The notes beneath the pieces were generated by a model. That model was given only the letters and a program-made list of their open reading frames with translations. It was not told the origin of the DNA and did not search any database. This document shows positions 30,606 through 48,063 of a DNA stretch of 64,000 nucleotides, in pieces. Source of the DNA: Micromonospora sp. NBC_01796 (GTDB lineage: Bacteria; Actinomycetota; Actinomycetes; Mycobacteriales; Micromonosporaceae); contig NZ_CP109078.1 of assembly GCF_035917455.1 (NCBI RefSeq), positions 434,001-498,000 on the forward strand. The letters run 5' to 3'. Numbering within the stretch: the stretch's first letter is position 1; each line of letters starts with the position of its first letter. The translations under genes and the position numbers were made by a program.

Positions 30606-30638
30606 CGCGCCACTCCCCCGTGCCGTCGGCTCCACCGG

Positions 30639-30656: not shown

Positions 30657-30706
30657 AAGCCTAACCAGGCACGCAAGGCGTTACCGTCCCGGAAGTCCGG
30701 GTGGCG

Positions 30707-32272: not shown

Positions 32273-32313
32273 CGTCACACCGTCGGCCGGTCGATCACTG
32301 CGCCGCACGACAC

Positions 32314-33383: not shown

Positions 33384-33413
33384 CGTGTCTCCTCGCTCCG
33401 TTGGTGCCCGGCG

Positions 33414-33457
33414 CAGGTCGTCGGGTCGGGATCGGCGAACCCCGACCCGACGACCTG
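33414..33457. terminator. Strong 17-bp terminator hairpin
   Basis: CAGGTCGTCGGGTCGGG (33414-33430) and CCCGACCCGACGACCTG (33441-33457), perfect, with a 10-nt loop. It lies 38 bp beyond the minus-strand metalloprotease stop and insulates the following lipoprotein genes. Confidence 0.85.
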
Positions 33458-33495
33458 TCCGGTGGTCAGTTCCGGTGATCAGTCTTGACGATCGG

Positions 33496-35541
33496 TCAGG
33501 ACTTCTCGACCCGGCACTGCTTGGTGACGGTCTTGCTCGGGTCGCTGACCGAGGTGGCGGTCAGCTTGACGAACCCGGTCGCGGCGGCGTCGCTGTTGGC
33601 GGCAACCGAGACCTTGACCGTGGTGGACTTGCCGAACTGGGCGGTGGCGAGTGCGTTCGGCAGCTCGGACCGCCAGCCCTTACCGGCAACCTCGGTGGAG
33701 AGCCGGTAGACGTCGGACTTGAGGTACGCGCTCACGTCCTCCGGGTGCTGCTGACCGCCGGCCGAGTACGTCCCGGTGTTGGTCAGGTCGAACGAGCAGG
33801 TGACGCCCTTCTTGGTGGGCGCACCGGCGCTGGTCACCTCGCCCTTGCCGAGGTTGACACCGCGGGCGCTCGGCCCGCCGTTGCCGTCCAGCGACTGGAC
33901 CGCGACGGTGTACGACAGGATGCCGTCAGCGTTGCGCTTGATGTCCAGGACGTAGAAGTGCAGACGGTTCGGACCGTCGACGTACTCGTACTCGCTGCCG
34001 GAGTTGGTGCCCGCGTGGAACAGGGCGTCCGAGAGCTGCCGGTAGTCACCCATGGTGATCTTCTGCGGGGTGCCGTTCGGCTGGTAGAAATCGATCATGT
34101 CGATGTCCTGCGGGTTGGCATCGATGACCCACTGGAACGGCGCGCTGTCCGCGTTCTTGGTCTTGCTGACCATGACACCGGCGTCCGGGGTGAACGAGTC
34201 CGCACCCATGCGGTCCACGACCTCGACCGTGTAGTTGTTGAAGTTTCCACCGTCGCAGAGCGGGTCGGTGGAGGTGTTGCAGGCGGGCTGGAGATCCTTG
34301 TTCAGCGCGATGTTGATGCCGGTCAGACCCTTCGGGCCGGCGTCGACAGCACGCGCCTTGATCTCGGCGACCACGAGGCCGGACGAGGCCAGGGCCTCAC
34401 GGGACAGCCGCAGCGCGTGCTCCTCGCCGAGGAGACCGATCTTCAGCTTGTCCCGCAGGGTGTGCAGGGAACCCATCGAACCGCCGTTGAGCGGCGGAAT
34501 CTGCCAACGGGTGTGCGGACCACCCGGGCCGTTGAACGACCCGCGCGACATCATGCTCCACACACCGGTGTACGCCCGACGCAGCGGAACGCCGTACGGG
34601 TTGTTGTAGTTGTCACCGATGCTGAGCAGGTGACTCAGCTCGTGGGCGTACGTGCCCATGCCGGAGCTCTCCGCCTGGGTGGAGGAGCCGCCACCGGCGT
34701 TCGGCCAGATCGTCGCCGCCGACTTCCACGAGGTCCAGTCGACGTACCGGGTCTTGGCGTAGTTCGGCATCGCCGGGTCCGGCGGGCCCCACGCGTCCGG
34801 GACGTCTTCCTTGGTCTGGAACATCATCTGGCCGAATTCCTGCCAGGTCGACGACTCGTCCTGACCGGCACCGAGGATGAAGACCAGCTCGAACGAGTCC
34901 GCGACCTCGTCGCCGACGGCCGCGCGCCAGGCGCCCAGACCATCGGTACGGATGTTGCGGTTGCAGGTCTCACCACCGGGGCACATGCCCGGGTTCATGT
35001 CGTTGGTGATGCCGTACTGGTACGACTTCGCCGGCATCGTGTACGGGCCGAACCCGTTCAGGTCGACGCCGTACCGGCCGTTGGAGTCCTGCATCCAGTA
35101 CTCGTGCAGGGTGTGACCCTTGTTCAGGTCGTTCGGCTTGTTCAGGAAGTCCTGGTAGAACTGCGGGACCTGGTCGCGCGGGACGTTCTGCGCGGTTGCC
35201 TGGGGGTTGCCGAAGACCGACGACCGGGCCCGCTGGGTGATCACGAACGGCTGGTCGACGTAGTCGAGGGTGACCAGCGCGATCTTGAAGTTACGGATCG
35301 AACCGCGCACCGTCGGGTCGTTCCAGTTGGTGCCCGGGGCGGCCTTGAAGTCGTCCCAGGTCATCGTGTCCGGGAATTCCCAGTTCTGCGGGTCGAGGAC
35401 CTGGAACGGGCCCGTACCGCCGGCGGGATTCGCCGGAGCCGCCGACGCGCCACTGGTTGCCACGGAGACGACCAGGGCGGACGTGACCGCGGCGACCAGA
35501 ATGGAACGCCGTACGTTTCTCTTGTTGAACGGAAGGTGCAT
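33496..35541 (-). CDS. Secreted M6-type (immune inhibitor A-like) metalloprotease
   Basis: A 681-residue secreted protease. It has a signal peptide with a basic start (NKRNVRRS), a hydrophobic core (ILVAAVTSALVVSVA) and likely cleavage after SGASA. The zinc site is YAHELSHLLSIGDNY with His300, Glu301 and His304; the downstream SIGDN and SMMSRGSFNGPGGPH resemble M6 peptidases. Paired Cys (MCPGGETCN, PACNTSTDPLCDG) suggest disulfides. The C-terminal 180 residues (after SYTVAVQSLDG) form beta domains, perhaps a substrate-binding module. A strong terminator follows. TACATT on the minus strand (35629-35624) is a possible -10 with an 80-nt leader. Confidence 0.88.
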   Translation of the reverse strand: MHLPFNKRNVRRSILVAAVTSALVVSVATSGASAAPANPAGGTGPFQVLDPQNWEFPDTMTWDDFKAAPGTNWNDPTVRGSIRNFKIALVTLDYVDQPFVITQRARSSVFGNPQATAQNVPRDQVPQFYQDFLNKPNDLNKGHTLHEYWMQDSNGRYGVDLNGFGPYTMPAKSYQYGITNDMNPGMCPGGETCNRNIRTDGLGAWRAAVGDEVADSFELVFILGAGQDESSTWQEFGQMMFQTKEDVPDAWGPPDPAMPNYAKTRYVDWTSWKSAATIWPNAGGGSSTQAESSGMGTYAHELSHLLSIGDNYNNPYGVPLRRAYTGVWSMMSRGSFNGPGGPHTRWQIPPLNGGSMGSLHTLRDKLKIGLLGEEHALRLSREALASSGLVVAEIKARAVDAGPKGLTGINIALNKDLQPACNTSTDPLCDGGNFNNYTVEVVDRMGADSFTPDAGVMVSKTKNADSAPFQWVIDANPQDIDMIDFYQPNGTPQKITMGDYRQLSDALFHAGTNSGSEYEYVDGPNRLHFYVLDIKRNADGILSYTVAVQSLDGNGGPSARGVNLGKGEVTSAGAPTKKGVTCSFDLTNTGTYSAGGQQHPEDVSAYLKSDVYRLSTEVAGKGWRSELPNALATAQFGKSTTVKVSVAANSDAAATGFVKLTATSVSDPSKTVTKQCRVEKS

Positions 35542-35847
35542 GTAGTCGCCCTTCGTCGCGGGGGTTCGACGCGGGAGGCGCCGAGGATGCCGGGCGCCCC
35601 CGAAGGGTCCGCGCCGCGCAACGAATGTAGAAGCATCGCTACTTCCCGGTCACCGTGCAGATGTCGGCAGGTCAACCAGCGTCTTTCGACACCTGAAGGA
35701 GCAACCGGGCCGTTACGTTCGACGCTGCGTCGGGGCGGGTCGGCGGAGGTCGATGGCTTGATCAACGGGCCATCGGCGTAGCGCTATTTCGAGTAGTGTC
35801 GGTGCGTTGTCGGGCGCCGTCCCGGCCTCGACGGAGGGAAGACACCC
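35542..35847. other. Divergent promoter region between the M6 protease and the PGA hydrolase
   Basis: This 306-bp gap has no gene. It contains a possible protease -10 (TACATT on minus, 35629-35624) and a possible -10 for the hydrolase (TAGTGT, 35794-35799), then the ribosome binding site GGAGGG near 35833. I see no strong palindrome. Confidence 0.4.
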
Positions 35848-36669
35848 GTGGTCGCCGCGAGCAGACGAAACCTCCTCGCCATGGTCGCCCTGGCCGTACC
35901 CGCCGTGCAGGTTCTCGGCTCCGGGGCGGCTGGCGCGGCGGACGCGTACCCTTCGAACACCGCCCTCTACGCGGAGACCGACCTGGTCGAGGGGGTCGAC
36001 TACGCCCGCCGCTACCAGCGTCACCGCTACTTCGACGACAGCCTGTCGCAGCGGTATCCGTACGCGAAGACCACGATCCTCGCCCCGCACGGCGGCGGAA
36101 TCGAGGTCGGCACCTCGGAGCTGTGCCTGGCCGTGGCCGGATACCACCCGGCGAGCCTGGCGGTAACCCCGGCCGGCGGCACCACCCACGACTACTGGAT
36201 GTTCGAGGGGCTGCGCGCCTCCAACAACGGCGAACTGCACGTCACCTCGTCGCACTGCGACGACGGTGTGGCGCGCGCGCTGTGCGCGGGTGCCCTCAAC
36301 GCCCTGGGCCTGCACGGCTGCACAGCCGCCCAGGCCGGCGAGGGCGAAGACGCCGCCGCGATCCTGGTCGGCGGCCGCAACAACACGTTCAAGCAGTACC
36401 TGCTGGAGGAACTGTTCTCGGCCGGGTTCCGGGCCATCGACGCGATCAACCACGAATCGCTCAACGGCAACGATCCCGACAACATCGCCAATCGCACCCT
36501 GCTCGGTGCCGGCGGCCAACTGGAGATCACCACCCCGTTGCGGCTGGCGATGTTCGAGGTCAACACCCGGGCGCAGCGCAAGAACACCACCACGCCGCTG
36601 TTCTGGAGCTTCGTCGCAGCCGTACGGACCGCGATATCCCGGACCGAGGCGGGCCAGGTCATCGCCTGA
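35848..36669 (+). CDS. Secreted poly-gamma-glutamate hydrolase family protein (DUF867)
   Basis: A 273-residue protein with a twin-Arg-like but weak N-terminal signal (SRRNLLAMVALAVPAVQVLG, cleavage near AGAADA). The mature domain carries YAKTTILAPHGGGIEVGTSE, with the PHGGGIE zinc ligands of the PghP family of phage-type gamma-polyglutamate hydrolases, plus HVTSSHCDDGVARAL and NNTFKQYLLEEL. It would cut gamma-linked polyglutamate capsules or slime made by other bacteria. GTG 35848 follows GGAGGG. It is divergent from the M6 protease; together they look like secreted foraging enzymes. Confidence 0.88.
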   Translation: MVAASRRNLLAMVALAVPAVQVLGSGAAGAADAYPSNTALYAETDLVEGVDYARRYQRHRYFDDSLSQRYPYAKTTILAPHGGGIEVGTSELCLAVAGYHPASLAVTPAGGTTHDYWMFEGLRASNNGELHVTSSHCDDGVARALCAGALNALGLHGCTAAQAGEGEDAAAILVGGRNNTFKQYLLEELFSAGFRAIDAINHESLNGNDPDNIANRTLLGAGGQLEITTPLRLAMFEVNTRAQRKNTTTPLFWSFVAAVRTAISRTEAGQVIA

Positions 36670-36745
36670 CCCCGCCGTCCGCCGACACAAGAACTCAGGA
36701 GGTACGGGCCAAGCCCGCCGAAAAGAGACCTATCCCTGGTTCGGC

Positions 36746-37234
36746 TCAGTCCGTCGGTGGTGTGGCGTAGTAGCGGCCGAGCATCGCGGTTGACCAGGGC
36801 GCCTGGTTGACCTCGCCTCGTGGCCCGAACTCGCCGAACCATGGCTTGATGTCGAGCACCGGAGTGCCGTCTACGGCGTCTAGCTCCTCCACGTGCAGGT
36901 CAAGCCCGTCGACCTTGAGCAGCCGGCAGCGCGAGACGCCCAGCCAGTTCAGCCGACGCATGTTGCGGTGGCCGAAGATGCCGACCGGAGGCCACTCGGG
37001 GTTGTCCCTGGGCCGTCGTGCGCCGAGGTTGAGATCGGTCGGGTCGGTGAGGTGGAACCGGAAGACGATCTCCAGGTGAGAGAACTCGTCAAGCCCGGCC
37101 GTCGCATCCGCGTCGAACCGCGATCCGTCGATCCTGATGATGGCGCGGGTCCCGCCCCAGTAGTCGTCGGTCGGCTCCACCCGCCCACCGACCACGTACG
37201 CAACAGGCTCGACCTGAAACGACTGACCTGTCAT
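36746..37234 (-). CDS. TrmO/TsaA-like SAM-dependent methyltransferase domain protein
   Basis: A 162-residue protein of the TrmO (YaeB/VirR) fold: AYVVGGRVEPTDDYWGGTRA, FDADATAGLDEFSHLEIVFR and NPEWPPVGIFGHRNMRRLNW, then LDVE-type ending (LDIKPWFGEFGP). E. coli TrmO methylates N6-threonylcarbamoyladenosine in tRNA. The actinobacterial single-domain versions are shorter, and a different substrate is possible. It lies 93 bp downstream of the TPR regulator on the same strand. The ribosome binding site GGGAAGAGGG precedes the ATG. Confidence 0.8.
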   Translation of the reverse strand: MTGQSFQVEPVAYVVGGRVEPTDDYWGGTRAIIRIDGSRFDADATAGLDEFSHLEIVFRFHLTDPTDLNLGARRPRDNPEWPPVGIFGHRNMRRLNWLGVSRCRLLKVDGLDLHVEELDAVDGTPVLDIKPWFGEFGPRGEVNQAPWSTAMLGRYYATPPTD

Positions 37235-37327
37235 GGCTACCCTCTTCCCGTCCTAGAAGCTGCCCAGAAATACTTGGTGCATATCTTCGTCGCCCTCGTG
37301 ATTACAACGGCCATCACCTCGCCCACC

Positions 37328-38722
37328 TCAGGCCATGTCGGCCAAGTGGAGCGCCACGCGGGCATCCAGCTCGACAACGGTCCGGATACCGCGCTGACGG
37401 AACGGCGAGAGAACCGAACGCATGTTGGAGGCGACCTGACGAGTACGACCTGAGCGAATCCCATCCATGGCGTCCAGTGCACTCGACCAGGTGGAGCACG
37501 CCTCCTCAATCGCACCCTGCCGTGCCTGCACATCACCGAGGTATCCGAGCGTCACAGCATGAGTACGGGTGAACGTCGCCGCCTTGCGAGTACGGACACT
37601 TCGGCGGAACTCATGGGCAGCACCGACCAAATCTCCAGTGTCACGCAAGGCGCAGGCCGTCTCGTGCGCAAGGCTGGCTTCGCCAAAGAAAAACACCCTG
37701 TTGGGCTCGTCGTCGCCCTGCTGAGCAGCGGCCAGATCATTCTCGGCACGTATGAGCGCCTCGGCCGCAGCGCTCTTCTGCCCGTTCATACCGAGCGCAC
37801 GTGCGTACACAACACCGAACAGCGCACGTTCGCGCGGGCAAGCCCGCGTGTATCGCTGTCCGTCCATTGAAGCGGCGGCGAGGTCGAGGGCCTTTCGGTG
37901 ATGCCCCAGGTCGAGGGCCTGGTGCGCCATCGCTCGAAGAACATGCCCGGCCATCGGAGAATCGTCAGCCTCAGCAGCTAGCTTCACAGCCACCCCGAAG
38001 TAGCGCTGCGCGATGGAATGCTCCGCATTATCGAACGCCATCCAACCCGCAAGATAGGCCAGTTCGCTAGCGACAGAGAACATTCCATGACGCACCTCGT
38101 CGTCGGGAAATCTGCCCTGGAGGTGACTCGCAACATCCGATGTCAGGTACTGGACGACCGCCGTACGAGCATGGCCACCGCCGCGCCGCTGGTCAACACG
38201 AGAGAAGAGCGACGCCATGTCACGAACAGCATCCAGGTCACCGCGCCCGATGCTACGTACGCCAGCAGCGCCACGAGTACCACCGCGTTCGGCCATCTGG
38301 GTCCACCAGGTGCCACCGGGCAGGGCAAGCGCGGCCACCGAGTAGGCAGCACCCTCAAGAACGCGCCTGCGGTCCACGTCCACGTCGACTCTCCCGAGGT
38401 TCGTCAGCTCCACCAGCGTATCGATACGCCAGTCCAGCGCGCTCCCCGAGGAGGCGCCCTCCGCCACGAACCCGACCTCATCAGGGGTGATGGTCCGGCC
38501 AACACGCCGGCTAAGCACCTCACACAAGATCACGACTCCTCGGCCTGACGGCTTGGAGCCACCGACCCAGTGCGAGACGTGTGACCTGCCCACTCCGGCG
38601 AACTCGCGAGCATCGTTCTCCAGAGCCACACGGACAAACGCCTTGGCAACCTGGGCATGCGACAGACCCGTCTCCGCGATTACTGCTGCGAGCTTGGCAT
38701 TTGCTTGGCGTGCTTGCACCAT
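37328..38722 (-). CDS. HTH regulator with C-terminal TPR-like repeats
   Basis: A 464-residue regulator. The N-terminus (residues 1-80) has a helix-turn-helix: AKLAAVIAETGLSHAQVAKA and GRSHVSHWVGGSKPSGRGVV, as in many streptomycete XRE-like regulators. The remaining 350 residues are alpha-helical repeats (GHVLRAMAHQALDLGHHRKA, FGVVYARALGMNGQKSAAAE), probably sensing a peptide or small molecule. The ATG is chosen over an upstream frame because AGGGGCC precedes it. It is divergent from the dNK-MDR-DegT-NUDIX operon with 248 bp between, and is its likely regulator. Confidence 0.82.
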   Translation of the reverse strand: MVQARQANAKLAAVIAETGLSHAQVAKAFVRVALENDAREFAGVGRSHVSHWVGGSKPSGRGVVILCEVLSRRVGRTITPDEVGFVAEGASSGSALDWRIDTLVELTNLGRVDVDVDRRRVLEGAAYSVAALALPGGTWWTQMAERGGTRGAAGVRSIGRGDLDAVRDMASLFSRVDQRRGGGHARTAVVQYLTSDVASHLQGRFPDDEVRHGMFSVASELAYLAGWMAFDNAEHSIAQRYFGVAVKLAAEADDSPMAGHVLRAMAHQALDLGHHRKALDLAAASMDGQRYTRACPRERALFGVVYARALGMNGQKSAAAEALIRAENDLAAAQQGDDEPNRVFFFGEASLAHETACALRDTGDLVGAAHEFRRSVRTRKAATFTRTHAVTLGYLGDVQARQGAIEEACSTWSSALDAMDGIRSGRTRQVASNMRSVLSPFRQRGIRTVVELDARVALHLADMA

Positions 38723-38970
38723 CGTGCGGCCCCTATCCGCTAAACGATCTTTCACCACTCTCACCACCACAGCACCCTGAGAGAGTACCGACGCGCGACG
38801 ATCCAGGGTTCGCTGTAGGTGTCCACAGAGACCCTGTCCTTCGGCAAAAGGAGAGGCGGCTCTGAGACATACGGTGACGCCCACCCGCAGGGCATTTCCG
38901 ATTGGGGCCGCACCGGCTTCCCACGCTACAGGTCGGGGCGGCCCCTCACCATACCTGGGAGGAAAGAGCA
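38723..38970. other. Divergent control region of the dNK-MDR-DegT-NUDIX operon
   Basis: A 248-bp non-coding gap between the TPR regulator and the operon. It is lower in GC than the flanks. I see no long palindrome. The last bases hold a strong ribosome binding site GGGAGGA (38957-38963) for TTG 38971. A TANNNT sequence (TACAGG-rich area near 38930) is too weak to call. Confidence 0.3.
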
Positions 38971-39240
38971 TTGATCTTCAGTGGAGATTACGAGCCTACG
39001 ATGTCCGACCCGAGATCGCTGATCAAGGAGATCGAATCGAGGCGGGAAGTGCTGCGCGGAACTGAACCCCCGCCGTCAGAAACGGCACCAAGGGAAATGA
39101 CTCCGGACTTGCCCCCAGCTACCCCCAGACGCGTCGCCAACAAGGGGCCGGGGTACGACAGCCCACCCGCCGCTGCCCAGGAGAGGTTCGCGGCCGGGGT
39201 GTCCGGTCGGGTACAGCGGAACGCGGCCGATCCGGCGTGA
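38971..39240 (+). CDS. Small hypothetical protein, first gene of the operon (89 aa)
   Basis: TTG 38971 is chosen because GGGAGGA lies 7 nt upstream; ATG 39001 is the alternative. The protein begins MIFSGDYEPTMSDPRSLIKE and continues with a charged helix (SLIKEIESRREVLRGTE) and a Pro-rich tail (PDLPPATPRRVANKG, GYDSPPAAAQ). No cysteines or membrane segments. Its stop overlaps the next start as GTGA, which supports it being real. Function unknown; it could be a regulator partner or a leader protein. Confidence 0.6.
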   Translation: MIFSGDYEPTMSDPRSLIKEIESRREVLRGTEPPPSETAPREMTPDLPPATPRRVANKGPGYDSPPAAAQERFAAGVSGRVQRNAADPA

Positions 39241-39503
39241 CCGCTCGCCTCCGTACGCTGAGACGGCCGCATCTACCGATGCGGCCGGCGTGGCGATGCA
39301 GAGTCTGTGCGGCGGCCTGGCCGTGCAGTCCGGCTCGGCTCGCGCTGCTGACAGAATTCGTTAACAACCGGGTCGGACTCTGCCAGTACCTCGCCACCCA
39401 GTACGTCCAGGCGCTCGACGACCTCTCCCGGCACGCCCCGAACGTGCCTCGCCGTGGCCTCTACACGCGGTTCCTCGGCTGGCCGTCGGGCTCCCGCCGA
39501 TGA
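39237..39503 (+). CDS. Small CxxC protein (88 aa), zinc-ribbon-like
   Basis: GTG start overlapping the previous stop by 4 bp. PAWRCRVCAAAWPCSPARLA carries a CxxC pair plus a third Cys; the remainder (NRVGLCQYLATQYVQALDDL, RRGLYTRFLGW) is helical. This type of small protein is frequent in streptomycetes and relatives beside TPR or HTH regulators and is usually annotated as hypothetical. Its place between the 89-aa protein and the RHH-like protein, all with 4-bp overlaps, shows one transcription unit. Confidence 0.7.
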   Translation: MTARLRTLRRPHLPMRPAWRCRVCAAAWPCSPARLALLTEFVNNRVGLCQYLATQYVQALDDLSRHAPNVPRRGLYTRFLGWPSGSRR

Positions 39504-39721
39504 CGAAATCCGATCGGCCCCGACTCGTCAAGATCACGCTCAATCTGACGAACGCCGCCGACACTGCGCTGACCAAGTTCGCCAACGACCAGGACACCAA
39601 CCGCACCGACGCGGTGAACCGCGCGATCCGGCTGGCGGCGCTGCTGCACGACCTCGCCCCGGGCGGGCAACTCACGATCGCCGCTCCGGACGGTGCCCTG
39701 ACCCGGATCTATCTGCTGTGA
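39500..39721 (+). CDS. Small ribbon-helix-helix-like protein (73 aa)
   Basis: ATG overlaps the previous stop as ATGA. The start RPRLVKITLNLTNAADTALT followed by FANDQDTNRTDAVNRAIRLA has the strand-helix-helix shape of CopG/Arc-type DNA-binding proteins: a basic beta strand, a helix, a TNRTDAVNRAI turn and helix. It lacks a clear toxin partner, so a local repressor is more likely than a toxin-antitoxin unit. The kinase gene starts 9 bp later. Confidence 0.7.
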   Translation: MTKSDRPRLVKITLNLTNAADTALTKFANDQDTNRTDAVNRAIRLAALLHDLAPGGQLTIAAPDGALTRIYLL

Positions 39722-39730
39722 GGGAGGGCG

Positions 39731-40525
39731 ATGGCTGCCTTGGACAGAGACAATGAGCCTCCTGGCCCGCTGACACGGAGCATGCACCTTTCAGGGCCAA
39801 TCTTTGTAGCCATCGAAGGGCCCACCGGGGTCGGGAAGACCACCCTCGCCCAACGACTGGCAACCCGTCTCGGTTTCCAACTCATGCTCGACCCGTTCGA
39901 GCACAATCCTTATCTATCGGATCTATACAACGAAGGCGCAATCGCCCGTAGCAGCCTCGCCGTCAAGGTAGAACTCACCTTCCTGGCCCTACGCGTTGCC
40001 CAGCTTCACGACATCGCCGATCTGCTCGCAGCAAACACACCAGTCGTAGCGGACTGGGGGCTGATCAAACAGCCTCTCTTCGCCGCCGACACCCTGCCTC
40101 CCGCTGTCGCCGACCGGGTCGCCAGCACGTGCGCGATGTGGGCACCCATACTGCCGGCTCCGGATTGGCTTGTTGCCATGTCCGCGCCAGTGCCGATCCT
40201 CAGACAGAGGATCCGTGGACGAGAACGCGACATGGAGCAGGGCATCCCCGACAACGACCTGCTCGCCCTCGCCGACCGCTTCGAAAAGGCGTTCAGCGTC
40301 TACCCCTACCCCCTGATCCGCCGCAGCGCCGCCACCTTCGACTCACTGCGCGACATCGATCTTGACGCGCTCGCCGACGAACTTCGAGGAGGAATCCGTG
40401 CCGCAACCCGCGACCACGGCGGTGACGCCCGCCGAGACGGGCCGACTATGCCGGCGTCTACTGATCACCGGCCCCAACAAAATCGAGGTGGTCGAGGAGC
40501 ACCTTCCGCCCGTCGGCCCGGGTGA
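39731..40525 (+). CDS. Deoxynucleoside kinase-like protein
   Basis: A 264-residue kinase with Walker A GPTGVGKT (30-37) and FEHNPYLSDLYNEG, matching the EP..NPYL substrate loop of deoxynucleoside kinases (dNK/dGK group), plus the LID IRGRERDMEQGIP and FEKAFSVYPYPL. It would phosphorylate a nucleoside or related sugar alcohol. The kinase domain is complete by about residue 222. The last 45 residues are Arg/Gly-rich and overlap the next gene by 128 bp in another frame, so the original stop may have been lost or a frameshift is present. ATG 39731 follows GGGAGGG. Confidence 0.85.
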   Translation: MAALDRDNEPPGPLTRSMHLSGPIFVAIEGPTGVGKTTLAQRLATRLGFQLMLDPFEHNPYLSDLYNEGAIARSSLAVKVELTFLALRVAQLHDIADLLAANTPVVADWGLIKQPLFAADTLPPAVADRVASTCAMWAPILPAPDWLVAMSAPVPILRQRIRGRERDMEQGIPDNDLLALADRFEKAFSVYPYPLIRRSAATFDSLRDIDLDALADELRGGIRAATRDHGGDARRDGPTMPASTDHRPQQNRGGRGAPSARRPG

Positions 40526-41489
40526 TGTCCTCGCTCGAAGCATCGTGTCGGGTATCAGCCACGGCACCGAGATGGCCTGGGTGAAGGGCACCGCAGCCGC
40601 CCTGCACCGTTCCTGGAACGGGGAACATCGCACGTACGTCACCGGCGCCGGGCGGGACTATCCGGTGGCACCAGGCTACGAGACCATTGCCCGAGTGGTG
40701 GAGGTCGGCGACGAGGTCACCGGAATCCGTGTCGATGACCTCGTCATGCTCGACCGACCGCACGCTGAATATCACCTCGTCAATGCCGCCACCGCGCCCG
40801 TTGTGCCACTGCCGGCCGGCACCGACCCCGAGCGGGCCGTATTCGGGATCCTCGCCCGGGTCGCCCTCGGCGGTGTCCATGACGCGGCCATCAAGGTCGG
40901 GGAGACGGTCGTCGTCAGCGGCCTCGGTACCGTCGGCCTGCTCGCCGCCCAGCAGGCCCGGCTGGCGGGCGCCGCCCACGTCATCGGCGTCGACCGGTAC
41001 CCGCTGCGTATCGCGGCCGCCCGCAGCCTCGGTGTCAACGGGCTGCACGCCGCATCTGGGGTGGACATCGCTGCCGAAGTCCGTCGACTGGTGGGCAGCA
41101 CCGAGGGTGCCGACGCGGCAATCGAGGCATCCGGCTCCTACGCCGGTCTACACGAGGCCATCCGCACCCTGCGGGTGGGTGGCCGGGTCGCCACAGTCGC
41201 CTCGTACCACGGCGACCAGCCGGGACTACGGCTCGGCGAGGAGTACCACCGCAACCGGATCACCATGATTTCGTCCATGACGGTCAACGGGTGCCCGCAA
41301 CGTGACCACCCAGCGTGGACACTCGACCGGCTCAGCACCACCGCCCGGCGACTCCTCGCCGACGGGCAGATCCGCGTCGACAACCTGATCACCCATCGGA
41401 TCCGGTTCCGGGACGCCGCCGCCGCGTACCGACTCATCGCTGACAACGCGCAGACAACGATCAAGGTGGTGTTGACTTATGACGACTAG
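40398..41489 (+). CDS. MDR-family dehydrogenase lacking the usual zinc ligands
   Basis: A 363-residue medium-chain dehydrogenase/reductase. The Rossmann motif is VVSGLGTVGLLAAQQARLAG and the GYETIARVVEVGDEV turn is typical of the catalytic domain. At the catalytic zinc position it has SGISHGTEMAW instead of GxCGTD and GYET instead of GHE, so the catalytic zinc is probably absent, as in BchC-like and bi-domain oxidoreductases that carry SGTE-type motifs. It would oxidise a hydroxyl to a ketone using NAD(P). GTG 40398 has the strong site GAGGAGG and overlaps the kinase tail; the next gene overlaps by 11 bp. Confidence 0.86.
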   Translation: MPQPATTAVTPAETGRLCRRLLITGPNKIEVVEEHLPPVGPGDVLARSIVSGISHGTEMAWVKGTAAALHRSWNGEHRTYVTGAGRDYPVAPGYETIARVVEVGDEVTGIRVDDLVMLDRPHAEYHLVNAATAPVVPLPAGTDPERAVFGILARVALGGVHDAAIKVGETVVVSGLGTVGLLAAQQARLAGAAHVIGVDRYPLRIAAARSLGVNGLHAASGVDIAAEVRRLVGSTEGADAAIEASGSYAGLHEAIRTLRVGGRVATVASYHGDQPGLRLGEEYHRNRITMISSMTVNGCPQRDHPAWTLDRLSTTARRLLADGQIRVDNLITHRIRFRDAAAAYRLIADNAQTTIKVVLTYDD

Positions 41490-42597
41490 CGTCAGCTACG
41501 ACGCGAGCCGGCCAATTGACGACCGATACCTACCGCCGGACTGCGACGAGCTCCAGGCAGTCCGTGACGTGCTTGACGACGGCCGTCTGTCAGGAGGAGC
41601 GGCCGTCCTGCCCCTGTACGAACGCGCCCTCGCCCGGTGGTTCGGGGTTCCGCACGCCGTCGCCGTCAACTCCGGATCCTCCGCCCTCCACGCCGCGCTC
41701 GTCGCGTTCAAGACGGGGCCGGGTACGGAGGTGATCGTGCCGGCGACCGCACCGTTGCCGACCGTCATGCCGGTCCTCACCTGCGGTGCGACCCCGGTCG
41801 TCGTCGACACTCTGCCGGGATCCCTCGCGCTCGATCCGACGGACGTCGAGCGGAAGCTGACCGTACGCACGCGGGCGGTGATCACCCTTCCGCTCTGGGG
41901 TTACCCTGCCAACGACCATCGGTTGGCCGCCCTGCTGGCCCCTACTGGTGTGCCGATCGTCGAAGACGCCTGCCAGGCCCACGGCACCGAGATCGCAGGC
42001 CGGTACGCGGGCACCCTTGGTCGGGTTGGCTGCTTCTCGACCCACGACCGTAAGTTGCTATCTACCGGCGAAGGCGGATTTCTCCTCACCGGGGACCGGG
42101 AACTCGCTGCCCGGCTCGACGACTACACCCACCTCGGCCACCTGCGGGGCGCCACCCACGGCGTCAACTACAAGCTGGCCGGACCGCTCGCCGCTATCGG
42201 CCTGCGTCGGCTGGAACAGCTCGACGCCCAGATCACCCAGCGGCGCGCCAACGCGCGGGCGATCCTTGACGCCCTCCCGGTCGACGGGCGTCTTCGCGAA
42301 CTACACAGCGCCAATGGCGACCAGCCGAACTACTACAATCTCGTCCTCGTGGCGGAGAGCAGCCCAGCGCTGATCGCGGCGGAACTCGCCGCGTCTGGCC
42401 TCCCCCCGGACTCGGTCCGGTACGGCTACCGTCCCCTCCATAAGCAGCCACTTTTTCGGGCATACGCGACGGAGTGCCCGAATGCCGAGATGCTCGCGGC
42501 GACGACCCTGCAACTTCCGTGCCACCCCGGCATGTCGCCGGAGACGATTGAGTGGGTGGCTCGGCGGACGGCCGCTATCGCACGAAGGGGAACCTGA
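41479..42597 (+). CDS. DegT/DnrJ/EryC1/StrS family aminotransferase
   Basis: A 372-residue PLP enzyme of the sugar aminotransferase family. VNSGSSALHAALVAFK binds PLP phosphate, IVEDACQAHG holds the Asp that contacts the pyridine N, and Lys192 in STHDRKLLSTGEGG is the internal aldimine lysine. The C-terminal YGYRPLHKQPLF matches the sugar-binding end of the family. It would convert the ketone made by the overlapping dehydrogenase into an amine, with glutamate or glutamine as donor. The NUDIX gene starts 1 bp after its stop. Confidence 0.93.
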   Translation: MTTSVSYDASRPIDDRYLPPDCDELQAVRDVLDDGRLSGGAAVLPLYERALARWFGVPHAVAVNSGSSALHAALVAFKTGPGTEVIVPATAPLPTVMPVLTCGATPVVVDTLPGSLALDPTDVERKLTVRTRAVITLPLWGYPANDHRLAALLAPTGVPIVEDACQAHGTEIAGRYAGTLGRVGCFSTHDRKLLSTGEGGFLLTGDRELAARLDDYTHLGHLRGATHGVNYKLAGPLAAIGLRRLEQLDAQITQRRANARAILDALPVDGRLRELHSANGDQPNYYNLVLVAESSPALIAAELAASGLPPDSVRYGYRPLHKQPLFRAYATECPNAEMLAATTLQLPCHPGMSPETIEWVARRTAAIARRGT

Positions 42598-42598
42598 C

Positions 42599-43075
42599 AT
42601 GACCGTTCGGCACAACACCGCCTCCGCCATAGTGCTCGACAGTAGGGATCGAGTGCTCCTCGTCCATCATCGGAAGTCCGGGTTGTGGCTGTACCCGGGT
42701 GGGCACGTCGACCCGAACGAGGATCCGGCAGAGGCCGCTGTCCGGGAGGCTCGCGAGGAAACCGGCATCGACGTCGACATCGTCGGCAAGCCCTCGTTCG
42801 AGCATTCGGCGGTGCGGAGCATCGTTCCGCCGTTCGCGATCATCGAGATGGAGGTCATCGACTCGCGGGATGGACAGCACCGACACATCGACTTCGTTTA
42901 TGTGTGTCGCGCCCAGCCTGGGGCACTGACCCCTCAGGTTGAGGAGGTGGCCGGCGTGGAGTGGGTGGCCGTTGACGCGGTCGCCGACTTGAATGTTCCT
43001 CTGGAGTTGCCCGCGCTCGTCGCGGCTGGCGCTCGGTGGGCGGCAACATTCGGAGCCTTGGCCAACGCCAACTGA
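42599..43075 (+). CDS. NUDIX hydrolase
   Basis: A 158-residue protein with a complete Nudix box from Gly35 to Ile57 (GHVDPNEDPAEAAVREA then REETGI). The rest has the usual alpha-beta-alpha shape (EVIDSRDGQHRHIDFVYVCR). It hydrolyses a nucleoside diphosphate linked to another group. Following a dehydrogenase and an aminotransferase in one operon, it could remove diphosphate from an aminated nucleotide. A clear terminator follows. Confidence 0.92.
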   Translation: MTVRHNTASAIVLDSRDRVLLVHHRKSGLWLYPGGHVDPNEDPAEAAVREAREETGIDVDIVGKPSFEHSAVRSIVPPFAIIEMEVIDSRDGQHRHIDFVYVCRAQPGALTPQVEEVAGVEWVAVDAVADLNVPLELPALVAAGARWAATFGALANAN

Positions 43076-43085
43076 AGACGAAACA

Positions 43086-43122
43086 CCGCAGGGGCACAGC
43101 CTGGTTGGCCGTGCCCCTGCGG
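43086..43122 (+). terminator. Operon terminator after the NUDIX gene
   Basis: CCGCAGGGGCAC (43086-43097) and GTGCCCCTGCGG (43111-43122): a perfect 12-bp stem with a 13-nt loop, 10 nt after the stop. The remaining gap to 43256 shows nothing. Confidence 0.8.
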
Positions 43123-43255
43123 CTTCCGCGACAAGCCCTGCGGAGCCAACGGGCTGTTCAATCTAAAAACGGCCTCTCAACCCTTGCCCCTCCGCTGTGT
43201 CTCCACCTGGCTGCCTAAGTGGCGCAGAGCGTGGCAATGATGAAGCGCCTCACAC

Positions 43256-44260
43256 TCAGATCAAGAAGCCCTCGGGGAACGGGTCCTCGGGGTCGAGCAG
43301 GTACTGCGCGGTGGCGGTGATCCAGGCTCGCCCGGTCACCGTCGGAAGGACGGCGGGGAGGTCGCCGACGGTGGTGGTGCCGGTCAGGCGGCCGGTGAAC
43401 CGGGTGCCGATCGGCGACTCGTTGACGAAGTCGGTGTCCAGTTCGAGCAGGCCACGGGCGTGCCGCTGGGCCATCCGGGCCGACGTACCGGTGCCGCACG
43501 GGGATCGGTCCACCCAGCCGGGGTGGATGACGACGGCGTTGCGCGCGTCGGCGCCATCGCGTCCCGGTTGGACGATTTGGATGTGCCGGCAGTCGTTGAT
43601 GCCCGGATTGGTCGGATGCACCGGCGGTGCCTGCTCGTCGATCGCCGCCATGATCTTCAAGCCCCGGCGGATCAGTTCCGGCACCGTGGCCGGCTCGACC
43701 GACAGGCCGAGCGACTCGGCTTCCACGATGGCGTAGAAGTTGCCGCCGAAGGCCATGTCGTAGCGGACTGACCCGATCCCGTCCCCCACCTTGACCTCCT
43801 GGTCAGCGGCGAGCAGGAACGACGGTACGTTGCGGATGGTGACCGCGGCGGCCCGGCCGTCGCGTACCTCGACGTCGACGGTGACCAGGCCGGCCGGGGT
43901 GTCCAGCCGGATAGTGGTCACCGGTTCCACCACCGGGACCATCCCGGTCTCCACCAGCACGGTCGCCACCCCGATGGTCCCGTGCCCGCACATCGGCAGC
44001 AGGCCGGAGACCTCGATGAACAACACCCCGAAGTCGGCGTCCGGACGGGTCGGCGGTTGCAGGATCGCACCGGACATCGCGGAGTGGCCGCGCGGCTCCA
44101 GCATCAGCAGCCGGCGCAGCCCGTCGCGGTCCCGCTCGAAGAGCTGCTTGCGCTCGAACATGGTCGCACCGGGCAGCACTCCGACCCCACCGGTGATGAC
44201 CCGGGTCGGCATCCCCTCGGTGTGCGAGTCGACCGCGTGCAGGACCATCCGGCTACGCAT
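43256..44260 (-). CDS. Proline racemase family protein, 4-hydroxyproline 2-epimerase
   Basis: A 334-residue proline racemase-fold enzyme. Both catalytic Cys are present: Cys91 in PMCGHGTIG and Cys255 in SPCGTGTSA, which separates it from the single-Cys dehydratases. It would convert trans-4-hydroxy-L-proline to cis-4-hydroxy-D-proline, the first step of the catabolic route encoded by this operon. It is the last gene of the operon and its start overlaps the previous gene by 8 bp. Met5 is an alternative start. Confidence 0.92.
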   Translation of the reverse strand: MRSRMVLHAVDSHTEGMPTRVITGGVGVLPGATMFERKQLFERDRDGLRRLLMLEPRGHSAMSGAILQPPTRPDADFGVLFIEVSGLLPMCGHGTIGVATVLVETGMVPVVEPVTTIRLDTPAGLVTVDVEVRDGRAAAVTIRNVPSFLLAADQEVKVGDGIGSVRYDMAFGGNFYAIVEAESLGLSVEPATVPELIRRGLKIMAAIDEQAPPVHPTNPGINDCRHIQIVQPGRDGADARNAVVIHPGWVDRSPCGTGTSARMAQRHARGLLELDTDFVNESPIGTRFTGRLTGTTTVGDLPAVLPTVTGRAWITATAQYLLDPEDPFPEGFLI

Positions 44261-45158
44261 CCGTACCCACCGGGGTCACGGCGAGGGCGCGGGCCATGTC
44301 CTTGCGGACCTGCGCCTCGGTCTCGGTGGAGAGCGGGCCGCGCGGCGGGCGGCAGGGTCCGCCGTACCGGCCGGCGAGTTCCATCCCGAGCTTGATCGCC
44401 TGTACGAACACCGGCCGGCTGTCCCAACCGAAGATCGGGTGCAGGGCGGCGTACAGCGGCAGCGCCTCGGCCAGGTTTCCGGCGCGGGCGAGTTCGTAGA
44501 GCTGCACCGAGAGCCTCGGCAGCGCGTTCGGGAAGCCGGCGATCCAGCCCTTCGCCCCGCACACCACCAGTTCCAGCAGGACGTCGTCGGCGCCGGCCAG
44601 CACGTCGAGATGCGGGCTCAGGTCGAGGATCCGGTGCAGCCGGCGTACGTCGCCGCTGAACTCCTTCACCGCCACGATCCCGTCGGTCTCGGCGATGGTG
44701 GCGAGCAACTCCGGGGTGAGGTCCACCTTGGTGTCGAACGGGTTGTTGTACGCCACCACCGGCAGCCCGACCGAGGCCACCTCACGGAAGTGCGCGACCA
44801 CCTCGGGGTCCCGCGCCGCGTACGTGTTCGGCGGCAACGCCAGTACGGCGTGCGCCCCGACCGACGCGGCGTGCTCGGCCCAGCGGCGTGACTGGCGGCT
44901 GCCGTACCCGCCGACACCGGGGACCACGGCGAACCCGGCGGGGGCCGCCTCGACGGTGGCGCGTACGACGTCGGCGCGTTCCTCGTCGCTGAGGTTCTGG
45001 TACTCCCCCAGCGACCCGCACGGGGTGACACCGTGACAGCCCTCGTCCGCCAACCAACGCACGTGTTCCTGCAGCCGGTCGAAGTCGACGGAGAGGTCCT
45101 CGCGGAACGGCGTCGGTATGGCGACCACGACGCCCTGCCACGGCTTTCGAGCTGTCAC
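44253..45158 (-). CDS. DHDPS-family lyase, probable 1-pyrroline-4-hydroxy-2-carboxylate deaminase
   Basis: A 301-residue DapA-like TIM barrel: GCHGVTPCGSLGEYQNLSDE, the Tyr in VVAYNNPF and the Schiff-base Lys in VAVKEFSGD. In hydroxyproline operons this family member converts 1-pyrroline-4-hydroxy-2-carboxylate to alpha-ketoglutarate semialdehyde with loss of ammonia and water. The operon context decides this call over a true DapA. GTG 45158 overlaps the upstream stop as GTGA. Confidence 0.86.
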   Translation of the reverse strand: MTARKPWQGVVVAIPTPFREDLSVDFDRLQEHVRWLADEGCHGVTPCGSLGEYQNLSDEERADVVRATVEAAPAGFAVVPGVGGYGSRQSRRWAEHAASVGAHAVLALPPNTYAARDPEVVAHFREVASVGLPVVAYNNPFDTKVDLTPELLATIAETDGIVAVKEFSGDVRRLHRILDLSPHLDVLAGADDVLLELVVCGAKGWIAGFPNALPRLSVQLYELARAGNLAEALPLYAALHPIFGWDSRPVFVQAIKLGMELAGRYGGPCRPPRGPLSTETEAQVRKDMARALAVTPVGTDA

Positions 45159-46579
45159 GGGGTTGTTCCTTCCTCGGCGACGGTGCCCAGTGGCACCGGC
45201 ATGGCTATGTGACGGTTGGCGAAGGTGTCGAGCGGCTGCGGTCGCCCGCTGACCTTGCCCAGCAGGCAGGCTGCGGCCCGCCCGCACATCCGACCCTGGC
45301 AGCGGCCCATCCCGATCCGGGTGACCAGCTTGAGTGCCCGCAGGTCGTCGATGCCGTACGCGGTGATGTCGGACCGGGTACGGCCGACGGTCACCTCCTC
45401 GCAGCGGCAGAGCACGGTGTCCGCCCGCAGCCAGTGGGTCCAGCCGTCCGGCACCGGGTAGACCTTGTGCAGTGCGGTGGCGAACCGGCGTTGGCGGGTG
45501 ATCCGGCGGCGCAACGGACCGGCGGCACGTCCGAACGCGGTGGTGTCGAGCCGGCCGATCCGGTGCAGGACGGCCAGACCGGCCAGCGTGCCCTCGTACC
45601 GGGCCAGGTCGGCGCCGCCCACTCCGGTCGCCTCACCGGCGACGAAGACCCCCGGTACGGTGCTCGCCTGACTGTGGTCGACGCTGACGACGAGGCTGCC
45701 GTCGGCCGGGTCGTGGTGGGTGGCGCAGCCGAGCGCGACGGCCAGTTCCACCGACGGGGTGAAGCCGTGGCCCACGCAGACCGCGTCGACCGCGACCGCA
45801 CGGGTCACCGCTCCGGGGCGCCAACCGGCGTCCACCCGGCGCAGGGTGGCCCGGAGCCGGTCGCCGTACGGTTCGACCATGGTCACGGCCTCGCCGGACC
45901 AGATCGGGATCCGGCGACGGCGCAGCGAACCCAGGTAGCGAACCGCTTCGCCAACCTTGCCGGGAGTGCCGGCGATGGCGCCGAGGTGCCGCCCCCACCG
46001 GCTGGTCCGGGACGCCTCGACCACACCGGCCACCTCGGCTCCGGCGGCGGCGAGCCCGTCCGCGACGGTGAGCAGGAACGGCCCGGTCCCGGCGACCAGG
46101 ACCCGCTGGCCGACCAGCACACCCTGCCCCTTCGCCAGGGACTGGGCGGCACCGGCGGTGACCACACCGGGCAGGTCCCAGCCGGGGAACGGCACCACCC
46201 GGTCGTGTCCGCCGGTGGCGAGGACCAGCACGGACGGGTGCAGCGTGACCGGGCCGACCGGCCCGAGCAGTCGCAGGGTGAAGCCGGGGCCGCCCCGGTT
46301 GTCGAGGTGCGGGATCGCGTCGGCGGCGGCCTGCCAGACCTGGTGGCCGGTCAGGAAGGTGATCCGGGGATGGTCGCGGGTGTGGTCCAGCAGCCGGTCA
46401 GCGGCGGCGCCGTGCCGTACGGGCGGCAGACCGGCGACGGCGGGCTGCCGGAGGTACTGCCCGCCGGGCAGGGCCCCGAGGTCCACCACGGTCACCTCGG
46501 CACCTCCGTCGGCGGCGGCGAGCGCGGCGGCCAGTCCGGCCGGTCCGGCACCGACGACCACGATCTGCGGGTCAGCCAC
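45155..46579 (-). CDS. D-hydroxyproline dehydrogenase, FAD/BFD subunit (HcnB-like)
   Basis: A 474-residue FAD protein: VVVGAGPAGLAAALAAADGG binds FAD, VLATGGHDRVVPFPG and VAGTGPFLLTVADGL bind a second dinucleotide, and VFVAGEATGVGGADLA closes the FAD site. The C-terminus has a BFD-like 2Fe-2S motif: LCRCEEVTVG and MGRCQGRMCG. It corresponds to the alpha subunit of three-part D-hydroxyproline or opine/HCN-type dehydrogenases. GTG 46579 is chosen because GGGGAG lies 6 nt upstream; it overlaps the upstream gene by 8 bp. Confidence 0.9.
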   Translation of the reverse strand: MADPQIVVVGAGPAGLAAALAAADGGAEVTVVDLGALPGGQYLRQPAVAGLPPVRHGAAADRLLDHTRDHPRITFLTGHQVWQAAADAIPHLDNRGGPGFTLRLLGPVGPVTLHPSVLVLATGGHDRVVPFPGWDLPGVVTAGAAQSLAKGQGVLVGQRVLVAGTGPFLLTVADGLAAAGAEVAGVVEASRTSRWGRHLGAIAGTPGKVGEAVRYLGSLRRRRIPIWSGEAVTMVEPYGDRLRATLRRVDAGWRPGAVTRAVAVDAVCVGHGFTPSVELAVALGCATHHDPADGSLVVSVDHSQASTVPGVFVAGEATGVGGADLARYEGTLAGLAVLHRIGRLDTTAFGRAAGPLRRRITRQRRFATALHKVYPVPDGWTHWLRADTVLCRCEEVTVGRTRSDITAYGIDDLRALKLVTRIGMGRCQGRMCGRAAACLLGKVSGRPQPLDTFANRHIAMPVPLGTVAEEGTTP

Positions 46580-46892
46580 GGTCGCTCCCCGTTCCGTACG
46601 CACCGACACCGGTCTCGATGACGGTGCCGGTCTCGATCACGTCGCCGGGGGCGACGGGGCGCAGGCAGGAGCGGACGCCGGGTTCGCCGTTGCAGACGAC
46701 CAGGCAGTCGAAGCACGTCCCGATGCCGCAGAACACTCCGCGCGGGCGGCCCTCGATCCGGGTCCGGCGGGTGGCCAGCCGGCCGCCGCCGAGCAGGACC
46801 GCCGCGACGGTCTGCCCCGGACGAACCGGGACCCGTACGCCGTCCACGGTGATGTCGAATCCGGTGGCGGGCGAATGGTCAGGCTGCGGCAT
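46572..46892 (-). CDS. D-hydroxyproline dehydrogenase, 2Fe-2S subunit (HcnA-like)
   Basis: A 106-residue small subunit. It begins with VPVRPGQTVAAVLLGGGR and carries the cluster Cys in GVFCGIGTCFDCLV and RSCLRPV, the pattern of the HcnA/SoxX-like 2Fe-2S proteins that pass electrons between two flavin subunits. Its ATG overlaps the upstream gene by 14 bp, and its own stop overlaps the next start, so stoichiometric production of the complex is expected. Confidence 0.9.
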   Translation of the reverse strand: MPQPDHSPATGFDITVDGVRVPVRPGQTVAAVLLGGGRLATRRTRIEGRPRGVFCGIGTCFDCLVVCNGEPGVRSCLRPVAPGDVIETGTVIETGVGAYGTGSDRG

Positions 46893-48063
46893 CCTCGACC
46901 ACCTCGTCTCCGGACGCGAACCGGGTCGGGCTGAACGGGCTCAGGTCCAGCTCCGGTTGTTCGCCGACGACAACCTGGGCGACCAGCTCACCGGTTGCCG
47001 GGGCCAGGCCGATGCCGGCGCCCTCGTGACCGTGCGCGTGCACCAGGCCGGGGGCCCGCGGATCGGCTCCGATCACCGGCAGGTGGTCCGGCGAGAACGG
47101 GCGGAAACCGTGGTAGAGCCGCATGATCCGGATCCGGGCCAGCACCGGGAAGAGCGACACCGCGCCGTACGCGAGCCGGCGGATCGCCTCCGGGTTCGGG
47201 GTCGGGTCGAAGCCGACCAGTTCACGGGTGGCGCCGATCAGGATCGTGCCGCTCGGGGTGCCCTCGACCACGGCAGACGACTGGAGGTCGGAGTCGCCGC
47301 TGGCCACGTTGTCGAGGTAGTCGGCGGCGTAGACCTTGTGCCGTACCAGGGGTGGGGCCGGTTCGGTGACCAGGATGAAGCCGCGTCGGGGGGTCACCGG
47401 GACGGCCGCACCGGCAAGACCGGCGACCCGACCGGCCCAGGCTCCGGCCGCGTTGACCACCTGCCCGGCGCCGACCACACCAGCGGCCGTCACCACCCCG
47501 GTCACCCGGCCGGTGCTGTCCCGCCGCAACGCGGTGACCTCGGTACGCAGCCGTACGCGGGCGCCGGCGTCCCGGGCCGCGGCGAGCAGGACAACCGCCG
47601 CCCGTGCCGGCATGAGCTGCATGTCCTGCGGATAGAAGACCCCACCGGCGAGCCCTTCGGTGATCTCGGGCTCCAGTTCGCGCAGCCGGTCGGCGCCGAC
47701 CGGTTCGACGGTGACGCCGTCGGCCGCCTGCCCGGCCGCGAAGTCGGTCAACGCGGCCAGCCCGGTGTCCGTACGGGTGACCATCAGGCCGCCCTTGCGT
47801 TCGAGTTCGAAGTCGCCGTACCGGTCGGACAGTTCGGCGTCGAGGGTCTGCCAGAGCCGGTTGCTGAGCAGGGCCAACGCCAGTTCGGGGCCGGGTGCCT
47901 TGTCGGAGATGAGCAGGTTGCCCTCGCCCGAGCCGGTGGCTCCGCTGACCAGGCCACCGCGTTCGAGCACCGCCACCGACAGGCCCCGCCGGGCGCAGGC
48001 GTACGCGCAGGCGGCACCGACGATCCCGGCGCCGATCACCACCACGTCGTACCCGTCGGTCAT
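46879..48063 (-). CDS. D-hydroxyproline dehydrogenase, DadA-like FAD catalytic subunit (HcnC-like)
   Basis: A 394-residue DAO-family flavoprotein: VVVIGAGIVGAACAYACAR for FAD, GSGEGNLLISDKAPGPELAL near the substrate, and HAHGHEGAGIGLAPATGELV at the end. It would oxidise cis-4-hydroxy-D-proline to 1-pyrroline-4-hydroxy-2-carboxylate and send electrons through the two following subunits. It is the first gene of the five-gene operon; the promoter lies in the 279-bp divergent gap with the PucR gene. Confidence 0.9.
   Translation of the reverse strand: MTDGYDVVVIGAGIVGAACAYACARRGLSVAVLERGGLVSGATGSGEGNLLISDKAPGPELALALLSNRLWQTLDAELSDRYGDFELERKGGLMVTRTDTGLAALTDFAAGQAADGVTVEPVGADRLRELEPEITEGLAGGVFYPQDMQLMPARAAVVLLAAARDAGARVRLRTEVTALRRDSTGRVTGVVTAAGVVGAGQVVNAAGAWAGRVAGLAGAAVPVTPRRGFILVTEPAPPLVRHKVYAADYLDNVASGDSDLQSSAVVEGTPSGTILIGATRELVGFDPTPNPEAIRRLAYGAVSLFPVLARIRIMRLYHGFRPFSPDHLPVIGADPRAPGLVHAHGHEGAGIGLAPATGELVAQVVVGEQPELDLSPFSPTRFASGDEVVEDAAA

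Follow-up and report, generated by a model that had tools for sequence, protein, structure and literature searches.

The operon described here, found in the soil actinomycete Micromonospora sp. NBC_01796, has as its core a conserved four-gene cassette encoding a deoxynucleoside kinase (dNK)-type kinase, a zinc-less medium-chain dehydrogenase/reductase (MDR), an aminotransferase of the DegT family and a NUDIX hydrolase. It lies in a 64-kb window, the whole stretch of DNA analyzed here, which corresponds to bases 434001-498000 of the 8.56 Mb single-contig genome. The enzyme families themselves are known, and what appears new is their conserved arrangement; no published description of the four-gene cassette was found among the literature matches listed. 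The cassette probably aminates a phosphorylated nucleoside or sugar, and our leading interpretation, a tentative one, is that it is a mobile biosynthetic cassette leading to an aminodeoxynucleoside or aminodeoxynucleotide. A first-pass annotation of the window had proposed seven near-touching genes running from a TTG start opposite a tetratricopeptide repeat (TPR) regulator. This operon is real: its layout is confirmed by the open reading frames (ORFs), by Pfam and by the NCBIfam model NF053720, and each of the four claimed enzyme families was matched in Pfam.

To follow the distribution of the cassette, we searched with the DegT protein in 200 genomes of the same family (own genome included), 394 genomes of the class and 392 genomes of a genus (g70) that appears to be Streptomyces, judged from its NsdA equivalog and PAC matches. 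Within the family, 14 of the 200 genomes gave matches at E <= 1e-60, 11 of them (own included) with at least 63% identity and three with 47-49%. At E <= 1e-80, matches were obtained in 3 of the 394 class genomes, namely our own, G370 (67%) and G206 (58%); the last of these lies on a 3.3-kb contig (L019) of a genome with 6% contamination, where the host family is less sure. The putative Streptomyces genomes yielded matches at E <= 1e-55 in 3 of 392, none above 44%. Close copies were thus found in the own genome and 12 others at 58-69% identity, giving 13 loci across 10 genera and three families, and the cassette is a patchy, accessory trait. A plasmid search retrieved 21 records at E <= 1e-40, none of which reached 60% identity, and an exact-peptide scan of genome contigs found one relative only.

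The order of the genes is fixed. The MDR gene lies directly 5' and the NUDIX gene directly 3' of the DegT gene in all 13 close loci, and the kinase gene is located 5' of the MDR gene in 11 of the 13, being cut by the contig end in L019. When the 200 family genomes (own included) were searched with the kinase itself, 10 matches were found at E <= 1e-15, and by their coordinates all 10 are directly beside an MDR-DegT pair; the matches in G158 and G020 extend past the TGA that ends the called gene. A four-gene order of this kind is far beyond chance, and the co-occurrence of the four enzymes, which the first-pass annotation had named as a test of its proposal, was borne out. The flanks of the cassette mostly differ among the 13 genomes, and beyond the cassette no gene family is common to most loci within 9.5 kb. 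The next commonest neighbors are helix-turn-helix (HTH)-type regulator families, present in 7 and 5 of the 21 loci clustered, and a few other families occur in two or three loci. Two single loci carry additional genes. In one (L026, 7156-8634), a xanthine/uracil-type permease gene (Pfam Xan_ur_permease) follows the NUDIX gene by approximately 100 bp on the same strand, and in a cassette without the dNK-type kinase (L033, 7035-8396) a radical S-adenosylmethionine (SAM) gene lies directly 5' of the MDR gene.

The kinase is closest to dNKs by sequence and by predicted fold. Its profile matched the dNK structures 8puu (8e-18) and Mycoplasma 2jas (8e-16) among PDB sequences, and Foldseek searches with its AlphaFold2 model (predicted local distance difference test score of 85) placed dNKs at ranks 1-8 and thymidylate kinases from rank 24, with the structure of AbmG of albomycin biosynthesis at rank 41 (18% identity). 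Q74 and the LID residues R147, R149 and E152 are invariant. The putative catalytic and binding roles that we assign to these residues and to the motifs of the kinase follow work on deoxycytidine kinase and Drosophila dNK. The dehydrogenase is regarded as a zinc-less MDR because the catalytic Cys and the His of the GHE motif are replaced in all 13 rows of the alignment (SGISHGTE or similar, and GY), leaving these zinc ligands absent. In the aminotransferase, K192, the pyridoxal 5'-phosphate (PLP) lysine, and D163 are invariant in 17 of 17 rows, and in the NUDIX hydrolase the residues G35, E41, R49, E50, E53, E54 and G56, which make up a complete GX5EX7REUXEEXGU box, are invariant in 16 of 16.

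The route that we infer, including the order of its reactions, its substrate, its product and the bioactivity of that product, would begin with the kinase phosphorylating a nucleoside-like alcohol. The MDR would then oxidize a secondary sugar hydroxyl, the PLP-dependent DegT aminotransferase would turn the ketone into an amine, and the NUDIX hydrolase would cleave a di- or triphosphate form, free the product and perhaps protect the producer; a phosphatase of the host would complete the pathway. A nucleoside substrate is favored on two grounds: both the kinase family and the NUDIX hydrolase suggest nucleotide chemistry, and there is precedent in two minimal operons for nucleoside prodrugs. In another use of the same enzymes, in salvage, detoxification or self-protection, the kinase and the NUDIX hydrolase would inactivate or recycle an incoming nucleoside-like toxin which the MDR and DegT enzymes modify. 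The patchy accessory distribution, the divergent regulator and the small number of genes would suit such a role, and the kinase TubH has been proposed as a self-resistance factor in tubercidin biosynthesis (PMC6112128). However, oxidation followed by amination would be typical of biosynthesis, and the kinase is missing from 2 of the 13 cassettes while MDR, DegT and NUDIX stay. We consider this role improbable.

Several observations weigh against the aminodeoxynucleoside interpretation. The arginine of the (D/E)RS motif of dNKs is replaced by Trp92, and the Glu of the EP motif by Asp37, in 9 of 9 kinase rows, while the base-contacting Asp following the motif is replaced by Q, H or T; Foldseek rank 9 is a complex I subunit, which has the dNK fold and is no kinase. 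The two cassettes without a kinase gene are L024 and L033, and in L025 this gene is split over two frames. No dedicated phosphatase or ligase gene is present in the operon. Transporter families do not recur near the 13 cassettes, an APC-type permease (labeled by eye) being found near 2 of the 13. Moreover, MDR relatives at 36-41% identity sit largely beside sugar genes, one of them (L152) beside a myo-inositol-1-phosphate synthase gene, and two loci related through DegT (L030 and L031) carry aminoglycoside phosphotransferase (APH) and glycosyltransferase genes that point to sugars.

The main alternative is a sugar or cyclitol as substrate, which is suggested by the changed kinase motif and by the sugar-type loci in which most of the MDR relatives viewed occur. 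In an amino sugar or aminocyclitol cassette, the kinase would yield a sugar or cyclitol phosphate, the MDR would oxidize a ring hydroxyl, DegT would aminate the product and the NUDIX hydrolase would cleave an activated or diphosphate form; the kanosamine and scyllo-inosamine pathways are models for such an oxidation and amination route. Beyond the cassettes and a lone MDR piece in G072, the next nearest MDRs were found at 19 places in the family (37-41% identity), 10 of which were viewed. At 7 of these 10 (L147, L148, L150 and L152-L155), Pfam confirmed ten neighbors: ThuA, two Gfo/Idh proteins, four xylose-isomerase-like TIM barrels, a solute-binding protein (sugar-type), a glycoside hydrolase and a myo-inositol-1-phosphate synthase; at L146, L149 and L151 the neighbors were labeled by eye. 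DegT belongs to a sugar-aminotransferase family, and its PDB matches include perosamine synthetase, scyllo-inosose aminotransferases and NtdA. On the other hand, the kinase matches deoxynucleoside kinases best among PDB entries, it occurred in the 200 genomes only within the cassette, and a NUDIX hydrolase instead of a sugar phosphatase would be unexpected. We consider an amino sugar or aminocyclitol product less likely than an aminodeoxynucleoside.

A role in anti-phage defense or as a nucleotide signal system appears very improbable. Nucleotide-type enzymes, accessory presence and HTH regulators near several loci would be in line with it, but PADLOC returned only weak matches (PDC-S07, 39.2 bits for the NUDIX hydrolase and at most 25.5 bits for the kinase), no effector gene was recognized, and of 50,697 phage records only 6 had a DegT match at E <= 1e-20, none of which reached 60% identity. 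Among the 80 IMG/VR viral loci listed, generic DegTs were found at up to 37%. On these same figures, a viral or phage origin of the cassette and its membership in a known defense system were both rejected.

The aminodeoxynucleoside interpretation includes mobility, and the first-pass annotation had suggested transfer of the segment. This claim is supported by the absence of the cassette from the corresponding site in both other genomes of the genus that were compared, G010 and G048, where the flanks 30000-35800 and 43255-47316 lie side by side at 84-90% identity. While G010 has a clean site with no trace of the island, G048 retains the decayed 3' half of a NUDIX gene (residues 70-158, in two frames, 62-68%) together with the hairpin region (window 42809-43128). 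A second trace there is short and weak, 82 positions that match the final part of the poly-gamma-glutamate hydrolase gene (36628-36708) at 73%. We infer that G048 once had the island of 35.8-43.25 kb and has lost most of it by deletion; the clean site in G010 and the NUDIX remnant in G048 thus suggest gain and later loss of the cassette. G072 carries a broken, lone MDR piece (58-59% over approximately 219 residues), which looks like another relic; a tblastn search of its 17 kb revealed no DegT or NUDIX. In genus g4 the cassette is found in G158 and G190, not in G003. Taken together, the cassette is apparently mobile or transferable.

The segment had also been described as lower in GC than its flanks. 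This is true, as the island (35801-43250) has a GC content of 66.4% compared to 71.1% for the rest of the window, and the GC content at third codon positions (GC3) is 0.69 for the kinase gene and 0.68 for the regulator gene compared to a gene median of 0.90. The difference is modest, however, and is matched elsewhere in the window: the island ranks as the 13th lowest of 227 sliding windows, and the gene at 33367-35781, just outside it, is as low or lower (GC 66.3%, GC3 0.60). The island also carries the poly-gamma-glutamate hydrolase gene (35848-36669) and a TrmO-like gene (36746-37234). On its other side, the region 43256-48063 looks like a hydroxyproline catabolic cluster, with a proline racemase/4-hydroxyproline epimerase-like gene (below equivalog cut-offs) and, as labeled by eye, dihydrodipicolinate-synthase-like and FAD oxidoreductase genes; it is present in both G010 and G048 up to about window position 47.2 kb, where the comparison ends.

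The features of the operon and its surroundings are collected in Table 1. The seven plus-strand ORFs are nearly gapless, and the sequence aggaaagag lies just 5' of the first TTG start. The three small 5' genes are, from the loci compared, outside the conserved core. None of them gave a match in the Pfam search; for the first, the TTG-started gene, the longer ORF at this place likewise had no NCBIfam match, and there was only a weak match among the loci searched, in L045 (E 0.011). Counting itself, the 88-aa Cys-containing protein is matched 34 times at E <= 0.01 in its own genome. An RHH-like gene lies just 3' in 6 of 12 other copies viewed (L160-L171), often with an HTH-type regulator gene opposite (labels by eye), and the RHH-like gene of L166 had no Pfam match. 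In the other cassette loci searched, the only match to the 88-aa protein was in L025 (39%), and the protein looks like a regulator-linked module and not a part of the pathway. The divergent regulator, which had no match in the Pfam search, is like NsdA-family regulators a member of NF053720, yet it remains far below the equivalog cut-offs of NsdA (141 of 830 bits) and NsdB (115 of 700 bits). A terminator had been proposed at the end of the operon. The strong hairpin is indeed there, whereas the terminator scan places a T-run beside it only on the minus strand; the hairpin is thus no plain plus-strand terminator and may serve both directions. No sigma-70 promoter was found in a scan of 37000-44500, and no Rfam match at gathering scores in 33000-48000. 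Genes outside annotated records were called by a codon-score caller, so that gene starts are estimates and some genes could have escaped detection.

Table 1. Features of the operon and the accessory island in window coordinates.
Feature	Position	Strand	Remarks
Accessory island	35801..43250		missing as a whole from two other genomes of the genus
NsdA-family TPR-type regulator, divergent	37328..38722 (ORF open from 38971)	-	NCBIfam NF053720 390 bits, cut-off 75; start by codon scoring
Small ORF, TTG start, coding status unsure	38971..39240	+	RBS-like (ribosome-binding-site-like) sequence upstream
Small Cys-containing protein, 88 aa, genome-wide family	39237..39503	+	
Small RHH-like (ribbon-helix-helix-like) protein, labeled by eye	39500..39721	+	no Pfam match
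Deoxynucleoside-kinase-type P-loop kinase	39782..40525 (ATG also at 39731)	+	Pfam dNK 52.8 bits, cut-off 27, 5.6e-14
Zinc-less MDR (zinc-family) dehydrogenase, GTG after gaggagg	40398..41489	+	Pfam ADH_zinc_N 64.7 bits
DegT/DnrJ/EryC1/StrS aminotransferase	41479..42597	+	Pfam DegT_DnrJ_EryC1 243.9 bits
NUDIX hydrolase, complete Nudix box	42599..43075	+	Pfam NUDIX 80.8 bits
Hairpin, 17 pairs, terminator-like	43085..43123		T-run reported for minus strand

To place the cassette among its relatives, a DegT tree was built, leaving out L018 and L028 (duplicates of L033 and L004), L032 (cut off) and six viral rows. The DegT of the window cassette falls in a 13-row clade (99/97) within a 23-row clade (100/99). 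DegTs of the wider clade, at 38-49% identity, sit in other gene sets. L031 has a Gfo/Idh-DegT-NUDIX arrangement with a P-loop kinase-like gene (AAA_28 over and Thymidylate_kin under the cut-off), two APH genes and a glycosyltransferase family 8 (GT8) gene, and L030 has a similar set with a transposase-like gene (by eye) between DegT and NUDIX. As a cluster in its own right, this set of two Micromonosporaceae genomes comprises GT8, a glycosyltransferase-like gene, the P-loop kinase-like gene, two Gfo/Idh genes, APH kinases, DegT and NUDIX. On the Mycetohabitans megaplasmid (L036) and the Pantoea ananatis plasmid (L046), a NUDIX gene, a Gfo/Idh gene, two DegT genes, and genes for an FAD enzyme, a haloacid dehalogenase (HAD)-type protein, a fatty acid desaturase, mtnP and a major facilitator superfamily (MFS) protein form one run, which may be a nucleoside-like cluster common to two distant proteobacteria. 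Neither L036 nor L037 showed a dNK-type kinase. In L043 an MDR-DegT pair is accompanied by luciferase-like and deaminase-family genes, and on a Rhodococcus plasmid by an LLM-class oxidoreductase gene. In L045, a P-loop kinase-like gene (Thymidylate_kin under the cut-off), a radical SAM gene and DegT lie beside PTPS, a QueE-like radical SAM gene (by eye) and GTP cyclohydrolase; L044 has a similar set, with the kinase-like gene over the Thymidylate_kin cut-off, and we take both to resemble a 7-deazapurine nucleoside cluster. A repeated theme of the wider clade is a kinase, some oxidoreductase, DegT and often NUDIX, although it is not universal. The kinase-like or nucleotide-type enzymes in L044 and L045, on the two plasmids with mtnP and in L043 speak for a nucleoside substrate of the cassette.

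The first-pass annotation had likened the operon to puromycin biosynthesis. This comparison holds for the chemical logic and fails for descent, as was seen by comparing Pur10, Pur4 and Pur7 of an authentic pur cluster (L133 in genome G822, with PAC 100% identical over 178 aa; L136 has no pur cluster). The genes around PAC encode a NUDIX hydrolase (Pur7 position), a Gfo/Idh protein (Pur10), a 742-aa protein (Pur6), a DegT (Pur4), a methyltransferase-like protein (Pur5) and an inositol-monophosphatase-type protein (Pur3); the families for Pur7, Pur10, Pur4 and Pur3 are by Pfam, and the pur names are putative assignments of our own by gene order. Pur10 belongs to GFO_IDH_MocA, whereas the window dehydrogenase is an MDR, and the two are unrelated (pairwise E 4.8). 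Pur4 is 34% identical to the window DegT over 218 aa (97.8 bits), compared to 108 and 92 bits for the other two DegTs of the genome, and the 23-row DegT clade excludes the three Pur4-type rows, which sit on a long branch, in agreement with BLAST. Pur7 has no significant similarity to the window NUDIX (E = 0.29) and gives E = 0.004 with the best cassette NUDIX (L029), both partners being NUDIX proteins by Pfam. No Pur3 monophosphatase gene is present in the operon (best Pur3 score to the window proteins compared, 18 bits), and neither Pur5 nor Pur6 was seen in it. Descent of the cassette from pur was therefore rejected. The puromycin, A201A and cystocin core (Pur10-Pur4-Pur7-Pur3, with roles as given in PMC11641026) nevertheless shares a dehydrogenase, a DegT aminotransferase and a NUDIX hydrolase with the cassette, which, unlike this core, has a kinase.

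At its fullest, the interpretation would be a new, horizontally spread minimal pathway to an aminodeoxynucleoside antibiotic or signal that evolved apart from puromycin. In it, a kinase dedicated to the route would act with a zinc-less MDR standing where puromycin has Pur10, and the NUDIX hydrolase would serve both to release the product and to protect the producing cell. The wider DegT clade would be one whose members work with kinases and exchangeable oxidoreductases (MDR, Gfo/Idh, radical SAM) to give different aminated nucleosides. We regard this as speculative. If the product is an aminonucleoside, sugar amination arose on at least two occasions, by dehydrogenases unrelated to each other, and further pathways of this kind could be sought through the wider DegT clade. 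The cassette is conserved and compact, could be expressed as one operon and occurs in at least ten genera of actinomycetes, so that its product can be tested directly.

Mini-clusters for nucleoside prodrugs have been described recently, for 3'-amino-3'-deoxyguanosine (ADG) in 2022 and for 4'-thiothymidine in 2025, and such small sets of ordinary-looking enzymes may be easy to overlook; literature on a 2'-amino-deoxyadenosine cluster itself was not found in our search. Single members of the cassette have counterparts in other nucleoside pathways: AbmG is described as a deoxycytidine-kinase homologue of albomycin biosynthesis (PMC9032320), and the final step to tubercidin is reportedly carried out by a NUDIX enzyme (PMC6112128). 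Like the cassette, adgA-E of Photorhabdus luminescens is a compact few-gene aminonucleoside operon with a GC content below its flanks, a likeness drawn by description only. It differs in consisting of pur10/4/7/3 homologues plus an MFS gene, and these homologues, adgB-E, make ADG according to PMC9239236. The operon thmA-C of Photorhabdus asymbiotica shares with the cassette a dNK-like kinase, a nucleotide hydrolase and the format of a mini-cluster with variable flanks; its kinase, radical SAM enzyme and NTPase make 4'-thiothymidine and are enough for this in E. coli, and resistance is conferred by the NTPase alone (PMC12691670). It has no aminotransferase, and a radical SAM enzyme, for which Pfam found no gene among those of the window operon, stands in place of MDR and DegT.

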